64,000 bases of DNA from Candidatus Krumholzibacteriota bacterium (GTDB lineage: Bacteria > Krumholzibacteriota > Krumholzibacteriia > Krumholzibacteriales > Krumholzibacteriaceae): positions 1 through 64,000 of the forward strand of contig JAFGCX010000016.1 in NCBI GenBank assembly GCA_016932415.1, read 5' to 3'. Below are positions 49,917 to 52,957 of the stretch, piece after piece (within the stretch, counting starts at the first letter, position 1; every line of letters begins with the position of its first letter). Below the pieces are notes generated by a model that saw only the letters and a list, made by a program, of their open reading frames with translations, was not told the origin of the DNA and made no database searches. Made by a program: the position numbers and the translations under genes.

Positions 49917-50480
49917 ATGAATTCCGTAATGATGGTAACAGGTGAAAACGGTCTATCGTTGTCGACAGTCGATACGGTGAGGCGTCTCGCGAGAATTGCC
50001 GGTTTTGTGATATTTAGCGCTATCGCTGCTCAACTTGCCGTGAGATTACCGTATACTCCGGTTCCCGTCACGATGCAGACGCTCTTTGTCGTCCTTGCCG
50101 GAATAGTGCTTGGACCCCGTGATGGTTTTTACGCTATGATCTCGTATGTAGCCCTCGGAGTGGCAGGGGCGCCGGTCTTCGCCGGCTTCAGCTTTGGTCC
50201 GGCTATAATAGTCGGTCCTACGGGCGGATATCTTATGGCATTTCCGATTGCTGCTCTTGTCGCAGGGTCCCTTTCACGTTCGCTCGGAGGTGGAAGAGTG
50301 GCGGTCCTAGCCTCTGCGGCTGTCGGCACATCGCTGATATTGCTTGCCGGGACGCTTTACCTCTCGATCTTGACCGGCCTGTCTCTTTCCATGGCAGTAT
50401 CCCTGGGTATCACCCCTTTTCTGGCTGGAGCCTTTGTAAAAAGCTTATCCGCGATGGTAATCGCTGGCAGGAAGCGATAA
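49917..50480 (+). CDS. bioY: BioY-family biotin transporter (ECF S component)
   Basis: 187 residues, six hydrophobic segments. BioY hallmarks: PVPVTMQTLFVVLAGIVLG, PRDGFYAMISYVALGVAGA and GPTGGYLMAFPIAA. ATG 49917 is preceded by AAAGGGG. No ECF ATPase or T subunit lies nearby, so it may act alone or share a module from elsewhere. It was not possible to identify a biotin-operator in the 94 bp upstream gap, which has a CCGGC/GCCGG hairpin only. Confidence 0.92.
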   Translation: MNSVMMVTGENGLSLSTVDTVRRLARIAGFVIFSAIAAQLAVRLPYTPVPVTMQTLFVVLAGIVLGPRDGFYAMISYVALGVAGAPVFAGFSFGPAIIVGPTGGYLMAFPIAALVAGSLSRSLGGGRVAVLASAAVGTSLILLAGTLYLSILTGLSLSMAVSLGITPFLAGAFVKSLSAMVIAGRKR

Positions 50481-50584: not shown

Positions 50585-50613
50585 TTGAAAATCGCCTCTA
50601 CTTGTGTTATAAT
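50585..50613 (+). promoter_or_regulatory. Near-consensus extended -10 promoter opposite asnB
   Basis: TTGAAA (50585-50590), 17 bp, TATAAT (50608-50613) with the TGn extension (TGT directly before the -10 box). Predicted start about 50620, just before the asnB stop codon on the other strand. It faces away from bioY and into the asnB 3' end. Confidence 0.7.
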
Positions 50614-50619
50614 GGCCAT

Positions 50620-50738
50620 CGAGATTTACAGGTATCGCGAGGTCTGAGCCTGATGCGGTAACAACTCCGATTTAAAGTCCTCAGGGACCTTGAAGGGGGA
50701 AAGAGGGAGCGAATAGCCTGATTCGTTCCCTTTTTTTG
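50620..50738 (+). ncRNA. Candidate small RNA, antisense to the 3' end of asnB
   Basis: About 119 nt between the strong promoter at 50585-50613 and the textbook terminator at 50706-50738. It has no credible ORF (the only ATG, 50653, runs two codons). A hairpin is possible between AGGTC (50640-50644) with inner TGAG or CCTGA and TCAGG/GACCT (50681-50690). A purine-rich unpaired stretch (GAAGGGGGAAAGAGG) separates it from the terminator. The RNA overlaps the last about 113 bp of asnB on the opposite strand. It does not show the 4.5S, 6S or tmRNA hallmarks. Confidence 0.6.
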
Positions 50739-52656
50739 CCATGTCGGGCAGACCGCTCTTTTCCCACCAAAGGGCGAAGATCAATAATCCCCATATGAAC
50801 CTCGAATTATTCAATCGGCCCGATTCAAATCCCCGCACCGCTTTTTCGACCTTGGCAGGATCGAGGATGCCCAATTTTTCGATATTTCTTCTTCCGAGGC
50901 AGCTGCCGAGAAGATCGTTAAGTTCTTTCCTTAGCCATCTGCCGACTGGTACTCCGAAACCTGTTTTTGGCCGTTCAAGAAGATTTCTCGGGAGGTGCCT
51001 GTATGAGACGTCTTTAAGGATCGATTTAAGGACTCCGTGTTGACGCTTGAAGTCAATAGGTAGCGTTCCAGCGAACTCGACGAGCCTGTGATCGAGGAGC
51101 GGGACGCGGACTTCAAGGGAGACGGCCATACTCATCCTGTCGACCTTCGAGAGTACGTCATCAACCATATATGTCTTCATATCTATGAGCATCAGCCTGT
51201 CGAGAGGGTGAAGATGGGCGGCGCGCCTGGCGATCTCCTGAAAGAATGAAGCGTCATAGAGAGCCTTGTCGGGGGCGTGTCTGAATATGTCGACTTCTCC
51301 CTGTTTCCATCCACTCATCCTCGAAAAATAGATCTGCGCGTATTCATCGTATGTAAGATCTCCGGCGATTCGCGATAATCTGTCAGGCAGCAACGTCCTG
51401 GCGGCTGAAAAGATCCCTTTCCTCACAAGACGGGGCATGCCATCAAATCTCAGCAGTTTTGCCATTGTAGCATATCTTTGATATCCACAGAATATCTCGT
51501 CTCCCCCGTCCCCCGAGAGCGCGACCGTTATCCCGTTCTTTTTCGCCAGATCTGATACAAACCAGGTCGGAACGACTGATGGATCGCCTGATGGTTCGTC
51601 AAGGTTGTCGACCACGTTGAGGATCATTTCTCTCGTTTTTTCTGGATCGAGAATATGGCCGGTGTGATCTGTACCGAGATATTCCGCAACTTTTCTGGCG
51701 TAATGGCTTTCATCGAAATCATCGTCCTCGAATCCGATCGAAAATGTCCGCACTGGCCTGTCGGCGACCCGGCTCATATGCGATACAACAAGACTTGAGT
51801 CGATCCCTCCACTTAGGAAGGCGCCGATCGGCACATCACTCATCATCCTGCCGGTGACAGAGTCTTTTACCAGCCGATCGACTTCCGTCAGGGCGTCGGT
51901 GTAAGATCCGCTGAATTGGCGGCGAGTCTCATTTTTATCGTCCTCAAGGGCCGGTGTTTCCCAATACCGGTATTTTGAAAGGATGCCATTACTGAATGTG
52001 GCGAAATGTCCCGGAAGGAGTTTCTCTATACCCTTGAAGATCGATCGGGGGGAAGGGACGTAAGAGAGGGTGAAGTACATCTCCATCGATCTCTCGTCTA
52101 TTTCGGGAACGAACGCGGGGCAGGTCCGAATGGCTCCGAGCTCGCTGGCGAAGAGAAAGTCTCCCTTCTGAAGTCCCATGTATAATGGTTTGATCCCCAA
52201 CCTGTCTCTTGCCAGGAGCATCTGCCGCACTTCCGCGTCCCAGATAGCGATCGCGAACATCCCTTGAAGCCTCTCAAAAAGACCGGTCCCCCACTGCTCG
52301 TAGCCGTGGACAAGAACCTCGGTGTCAGTTCTCGATCTGAAACTGTGCTCGCGTTCAAGTTGCTTTCTCAGAGCGGCAAAGTTATAGATCTCTCCATTGA
52401 AGGCGATCCAGACCCTGCCATTCTCGTTACTCATCGGCTGATGACCGGCGCTGGAGAGGTCGATTATCGACAACCTTCTATGGCCAAGGCCGACATTACC
52501 GCGAGAGAGGCTTTCAAGACTTGCCGGCCTGTCTTTCATCGTAAGATAGCAACCACCGTCGTCAGGACCGCGGTGTTTTATCGCCTGGTTCATCTTCTCG
52601 AGTGTCTCGCGACCAAAGGTATTATTATTTATAACAAAGCCGCATATTCCACACAT
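50626..52656 (-). CDS. asnB: Asparagine synthetase B (glutamine-hydrolysing)
   Basis: 676 residues. The N-terminal glutaminase begins MCGICGFV with catalytic Cys2 exposed after Met removal. The synthetase domain has the PP-loop SGGIDSS and VALSGDGGDEIFCGYQRY. About 40 residues follow the usual end of the family (near FALWWEKSG), and their codons are the reverse complement of the candidate sRNA at 50620-50738. This extension is odd: it has little conserved character. The form is that of the asparagine synthetases found beside glycan genes, which can amidate sugar acids as well as aspartate. The 145 bp gap to bioY is convergent. Confidence 0.95.
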   Translation of the reverse strand: MCGICGFVINNNTFGRETLEKMNQAIKHRGPDDGGCYLTMKDRPASLESLSRGNVGLGHRRLSIIDLSSAGHQPMSNENGRVWIAFNGEIYNFAALRKQLEREHSFRSRTDTEVLVHGYEQWGTGLFERLQGMFAIAIWDAEVRQMLLARDRLGIKPLYMGLQKGDFLFASELGAIRTCPAFVPEIDERSMEMYFTLSYVPSPRSIFKGIEKLLPGHFATFSNGILSKYRYWETPALEDDKNETRRQFSGSYTDALTEVDRLVKDSVTGRMMSDVPIGAFLSGGIDSSLVVSHMSRVADRPVRTFSIGFEDDDFDESHYARKVAEYLGTDHTGHILDPEKTREMILNVVDNLDEPSGDPSVVPTWFVSDLAKKNGITVALSGDGGDEIFCGYQRYATMAKLLRFDGMPRLVRKGIFSAARTLLPDRLSRIAGDLTYDEYAQIYFSRMSGWKQGEVDIFRHAPDKALYDASFFQEIARRAAHLHPLDRLMLIDMKTYMVDDVLSKVDRMSMAVSLEVRVPLLDHRLVEFAGTLPIDFKRQHGVLKSILKDVSYRHLPRNLLERPKTGFGVPVGRWLRKELNDLLGSCLGRRNIEKLGILDPAKVEKAVRGFESGRLNNSRFIWGLLIFALWWEKSGLPDMAKKGNESGYSLPLSPFKVPEDFKSELLPHQAQTSRYL
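50706..50738 (+). terminator. Rho-independent terminator of the candidate sRNA
   Basis: Ten-pair stem GGGAGCGAAT (50706-50715) with ATTCGTTCCC (50722-50731), one G-U, a 6-nt loop, then seven T residues (50732-50738). It lies inside the asnB coding region on the other strand. Confidence 0.85.
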
Positions 52657-52765: not shown

Positions 52766-52793
52766 TTGACAGAGTTGAAAAACCGACTAAGAT
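52766..52793 (+). promoter_or_regulatory. Promoter of second candidate sRNA
   Basis: TTGACA (52766-52771), 16 bp, TAAGAT (52788-52793). Predicted start about 52800. It lies in the 393 bp gap upstream of asnB and reads away from asnB, toward the 3' end of the minus-strand GT4 gene. Confidence 0.5.
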
Positions 52794-52799
52794 ATATAC

Positions 52800-52957
52800 A
52801 GGATGAAGGGGCACGCGGGGAGTCAAGTTGTTGTTGAATCCCGACATTCAGAAGCGGGAGAGATTAAGCCCTTGCTGCCCGATCATCATTCTTCCATATT
52901 TCTGAGACGCCACGGATTCTCATATCGGATGGGAACCCGTGGCGGTTTTATTATTTC
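52800..52957 (+). ncRNA. Candidate small structured RNA upstream of asnB
   Basis: About 155 nt bounded by the promoter at 52766 and the terminator hairpin at 52908. A 5' hairpin (GGGAGTCAA, 52818-52826, with TTGAATCCC, 52834-52842, one mismatch, 7-nt loop) is followed by possible long-range TCAGAA/TTCTGA pairing around 52849 and 52899. An ORF at 52803 reads through the terminator into the neighbour and has no ribosome binding site, so an RNA is preferred. Confidence 0.5.
52908..52956 (+). terminator. Long terminator hairpin with U-rich tail
   Basis: Stem CGCCACGG (52908-52915) with CCGTGGCG (52937-52944), one A-C mismatch, then TTCTCAT with ATGGGAA (one G-U) and a 5-nt loop: 15 pairs in total. 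It is followed by GTTTTATTATTT. No T-run is present on the minus side, so it works in the plus direction. Confidence 0.6.

Follow-up and report, generated by a model that had tools for sequence, protein, structure and literature searches.

The window considered here, by which we mean the whole 64-kb stretch of DNA analysed, comes from a Candidatus Krumholzibacteriota bacterium and contains a locus at which a protein-coding gene on the minus strand lies between two predicted RNAs on the plus strand. The gene bioY (49917-50480, plus strand), encoding a biotin transporter subunit (Pfam PF02632), is followed after about 100 nt by a sigma-70-type promoter (50585-50613, plus strand), and between this promoter and an intrinsic terminator (50705-50737, plus strand) lies a predicted small RNA of about 118 nt (50620-50737, plus strand), also recovered with a covariance model, which we call RNA1. 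On the opposite strand runs an asnB-family amidotransferase gene (50626-52656, minus strand), in whose product residues 258-631 match the Pfam Asn_synthase domain, and beyond it lies RNA2 (52766-52951 with its promoter, plus strand). A reading of this DNA made from the letters alone (the sequence-only reading below) had proposed RNA1 as an antisense RNA overlapping about 113 bp of the end of asnB; the overlap is real, but with the asnB stop at 50626 it measures about 112 bp.

The promoter that had been proposed was confirmed both by direct reading and by a scan: it consists of TTGAAA (50585-50590), a 17-nt spacer ending in a TGT extension (50605-50607), and TATAAT (50608-50613), matching the consensus at 11 of 12 positions. 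The terminator comprises a stem of ten pairs, one of them G-U (50705-50714/50721-50730), a loop of 6, and seven T at 50731-50737; the stem and T tract had been described correctly, although placed one position too far downstream (50706-50738). A window-wide terminator scan omits this stem, probably because its greedy stem extends into the T tract, and the stem was read directly instead. Only at RNA1 does the 64-kb window pair a promoter scoring 10/12 or better with a strong terminator no more than 250 nt downstream, and 60 dinucleotide shuffles contained no such pair. Promoters of at least 11/12 number four in the window against a shuffle mean of 0.35. RNA1 is thus furnished with a promoter and terminator of its own beyond chance, as expected of an independent small-RNA gene, and we found no conserved ORF between the two signals, in agreement with the sequence-only reading.

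The predicted transcript folds more stably than its shuffles, both here (z = -3.3) and in a second species described below (z = -3.0). This fold contradicts one earlier proposal, namely that the purine-rich stretch GAAGGGGGAAAGAGG is unpaired and free to bind targets: in the predicted ensemble every one of its bases has a pairing probability of about 0.56 or more. The bases are mostly paired because AAAGAGGG prolongs the terminator stem by pairing with the T run; the stretch as a whole makes up a lengthened base of the terminator together with a portion of the helix before it. Little unpaired sequence is available as a seed in the conserved part of RNA1.

Among 39 related genomes searched, a significant DNA match to RNA1 was found only in JAFGBF010000005.1 (Candidatus Krumholzibacteriota; G001), the sole other member of the genus compared and about 90% complete. 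There RNA1 occupies the same place, just 3' of bioY, and retains TTGAAA-17-TATGAT with TGT, the core TTTAAAGTCCTNAGGGACCTTNAAGGGGGAA, and the terminator; the promoter spacer has diverged in sequence, with the hexamers, the 17-nt length, and TGT unchanged in layout. The conserved core (50668-50703, plus strand) consists of a hairpin, GUCC (50677-50680)-UCAG-GGAC (50685-50688), and a G-rich strand after it. Between the two species the 3' half of RNA1 is 86% identical and the 5' half 60% identical with gaps. Third codon positions of bioY are only 35% identical, so that neutral sites have diverged almost completely; given the 86% identity maintained in the 3' half despite this divergence, selection appears to act on the promoter, core, and terminator of RNA1. 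The terminator stem also carries one two-sided compensatory change relative to G001, a thin covariation signal that comes from two sequences only.

Covariance modelling in relatives had been suggested as a check by the sequence-only reading. A model built from the two sequences recovers RNA1 in 2 of 80 genomes of the phylum, both of this genus, and in none of the other 78; conservation of the RNA and its signals is therefore seen, in two genomes only, and RNA1 is restricted to the genus. Even so, hexamers, spacing, TGn extension, terminator, and core were kept while neutral sites diverged, and on these grounds the status of RNA1 as an independent small-RNA gene, put forward at the outset as a candidate, is well supported by the comparison of sequences.

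The same features bear on the main rival explanation, in which RNA1 is principally part of the bioY transcript, serving as its 3' untranslated end and terminator, with the internal promoter yielding a by-product or a small RNA of the 3'-UTR type. RNA1 lies directly 3' of bioY in both species, and no terminator between the bioY stop and RNA1 was listed by the window scan. A bare bioY terminator would nevertheless have no need of the core upstream of it, which is kept as well, nor would it account for the retention of both hexamers, the 17-nt spacing, and TGT around a diverged spacer. We regard this explanation as unlikely, while the strongest of the competitors. As no bioY terminator is listed before RNA1, it is compatible with a stand-alone small RNA rather than exclusive of it, and read-through from bioY could be another source of RNA1.

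RNA1 could be assigned to no Rfam family. No Rfam 15 family, 6S included, matched above its curated cut-off in the window, where only sub-threshold matches were seen; the Rfam scan suggested with the sequence-only reading thus placed RNA1 in no family. Assignment as 6S RNA was ruled out, the 6S RNA of this genome lying elsewhere (C20), and relaxed thresholds returned weak matches only, the best of which, Termite-leu, fell on opposite strands in the two species. Searching the GTDB genome collection for the exact core pattern returned G001 and, by chance, a single contig from an alphaproteobacterial MAG, on which the rest of RNA1 is lacking. When 3 mismatches were allowed, the pattern was no more frequent than its reversed control, and the sole match inspected (in G007) lay inside a coding gene. 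A narrow literature search found no paper describing small or noncoding RNAs from this phylum.

The overlap of RNA1 with asnB is best understood from the far end of the asnB product. This protein has 676 residues, whereas its homologues, read to their stop, mostly have 625-647, and their alignments with it stop around residue 630-636. Matches to two protein models finish nearby, at residue 631 for the Asn_synthase domain and at residue 629 for TIGR03108. The few homologue matches that reach 645-653 are 31-41% identical, and two of them run through a stop. The codon of residue 636 lies at 50749-50751, immediately beyond the terminator of RNA1, and therefore the non-homologous C-terminal tail (residues 637-676; 50629-50748, minus strand), whose sequence includes MAKKGNESGYSLPL, is mainly the RNA1 gene read backwards. 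The gene asnB is also missing from this locus in four relatives (G001, G009, G012, and G015), and in three of these, G009, G012, and G015, all of the same family, the gene order is bioY, RNA2, glycosyltransferase. Nor did G001 contain a match to asnB anywhere at E<=1e-30, an absence that is not absolute in an assembly of about 90% completeness. As to the identity of the 'asnB' product, it scores best against TIGR03108 (XrtA/PEP-CTERM system amidotransferase), albeit below the cut-off of that model, and it clears the cut-off of the general model for asparagine synthase. Given the glycosyltransferase gene adjoining, it may serve exopolysaccharide metabolism rather than asparagine synthesis.

The simplest history that would account for this arrangement is an insertion of asnB between RNA1 and RNA2, beside a pre-existing RNA1, in this lineage, after which the reading frame would continue along the strand opposite RNA1 as far as the first stop. 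On this history asnB is the newcomer, and its antisense overlap with RNA1 a secondary by-product. A fuller version, in which the incoming amidotransferase gained a tail of 36-40 residues, the DNA came to serve as both small-RNA gene and protein code, and a trans-acting RNA became the antisense RNA of its new neighbour, we advance tentatively, as a possibility somewhat short of an even chance.

These observations weigh against the second rival explanation, in which RNA1 is a cis-antisense regulator of asnB that acts by pairing with the 3' end of its mRNA or through transcriptional collision. The two are perfectly complementary over about 112 bp here, and some interference is likely if both are transcribed. 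RNA1 is conserved, however, in G001, where no asnB match was found, and the overlapping tail has no counterpart in homologues, so that any antisense effect is at most recent and secondary; it may have arisen since the insertion. Joint retention of RNA1 and asnB in relatives, which would mark a functional cis-antisense pair, was not found. We therefore find no support for control of asnB as the reason why RNA1 exists, and consider this explanation improbable. The sequence-only reading had named as refutation a lack of conservation in relatives that keep asnB, a logic that the data reverse, RNA1 being conserved in a relative without it. Its own alternative, that the RNA acts in trans and merely overlaps asnB, is the better one.

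The second RNA of the locus has a wider distribution. RNA2, likewise bounded by a promoter and a terminator, lies about 2 kb downstream of RNA1 and is a diverged copy, a stand-alone relative of a cysE leader RNA. A model built from seven copies (R2, matching 52795-52951 here) detects RNA2 in 24 of the 25 genomes from the order, among them the full set of 20 from the family, while the other 55 genomes of the phylum gave no match. Promoter-like sequence of at least 10/12 stands just upstream of all 27 copies (L082-L108), and neither the window nor four other copies gave a match in Rfam. A cysE-like gene follows six of the copies at a distance of 39-119 nt (L106, L088, L089, L090, L100, and L107). 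One of the six is in this genome (L106:1501-1663; G000 C7:229996), where the gene after it scores above the TIGR01172 cut-off for cysE and is itself followed by a cysK-type gene. All six contain an upstream ORF of 15-17 codons that begins M(K/R) and has GH and then CC or CCC near its stop, and by analogy they look like candidate polycysteine leader-peptide attenuators of cysE. In the stand-alone copies beside a glycosyltransferase gene, the window copy included, this ORF is mostly broken (G004 keeps it, and the g8 genomes have it in a different form). Relative to the cysE copies, the one in the window (aligned over 52798-52951) and that of G001 (L085) share a one-base gap by which the cysteine codons lose their frame; even so, both retain the promoter and hairpin. 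The stand-alone RNA2 of this genus could be an attenuator turned free small RNA.

A similar origin might be imagined for RNA1, as a relic, or an orphan, left when an attenuator or riboswitch leader lost its gene. RNA1 has the same anatomy (promoter, structured leader, and terminator) and adjoins RNA2, whose relatives precede cysE, but no other copy of it stands upstream of any gene in 80 genomes, it has no conserved upstream ORF, and 86% identity is not expected of a relic. Leaders of either kind would be expected to have a downstream gene on the same strand. No such coding gene lies within reach of RNA1; next on the plus strand comes RNA2, which has a promoter of its own, and beyond it a convergent glycosyltransferase gene. 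We judge the relic explanation very unlikely. In neither species did pairing between RNA1 and RNA2 exceed the level seen with shuffles.

With regard to protein partners, Hfq was found in none of the 20 genomes of the family (f1), while control genomes gave matches, which speaks against an Hfq-dependent trans-acting RNA. CsrA was found in 5 of the same 20 genomes; it is encoded in this genome and was not detected in G001. That RNA1 is a decoy binding CsrA, as a few ANGGA-type motifs seen by eye in each species and the presence of CsrA here might hint, seems the least credible explanation of all, since G001 has RNA1 and no detectable CsrA, so that the protein is not present in every genome bearing the RNA, and since the GGA motifs fall in predicted helices rather than loops.

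We therefore favor, as the probable reading, that RNA1 is a small RNA which stands alone and works in trans, independently of Hfq, by means of its conserved 3' half, because there is no plus-strand coding gene within reach downstream and no conserved ORF, and because Hfq was not found in the 20 family genomes, nor CsrA in G001. The promoter after bioY would produce an RNA of about 118 nt ending at the intrinsic terminator. Its working part would be the conserved 3' half, made up of the GUCC-UYAG-GGAC hairpin, the G-rich strand, and the terminator hairpin, and it would most likely act without Hfq through RNA pairing or protein binding. In this genome alone, transcription opposed to that of asnB could add a secondary antisense effect on that gene.

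The locus contributes a small-RNA gene from a lineage that has been little studied and where Hfq was not found (20 family genomes). It also illustrates that an apparent antisense RNA can arise as the by-product of a gene insertion, and that a single genome would have suggested the wrong function. Of the two RNAs, the more useful find is probably RNA2, an order-wide RNA related to a cysE leader and without a match in Rfam.

Compared with known systems, RNA1 resembles intergenic bacterial small RNAs in its sigma-70-type promoter, length of about 100 nt, intrinsic terminator with seven T, lack of an ORF, and conservation concentrated in one part; it differs in the lack of Hfq in the family, its restriction to one genus, and the lack of an Rfam match. 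Like cis-antisense RNAs, it is complementary to the 3' end of asnB in this genome, but it is present without asnB in the sister species, the overlap stemming from the inferred insertion. For RNA2 the comparison is with cysteine leader-peptide attenuators, which have been proposed for actinobacterial cys operons (PMC1262725); for polycysteine attenuators of cys operons, see also Canestrari et al. 2020, cited in PMC13236596. The cysE-linked copies resemble such attenuators in their upstream ORF of 15-17 codons with tandem TGT near its stop, ahead of cysE, whereas RNA2 differs in having a strong intrinsic terminator and in belonging to another phylum, and the copy in the window stands alone with its frame shifted.
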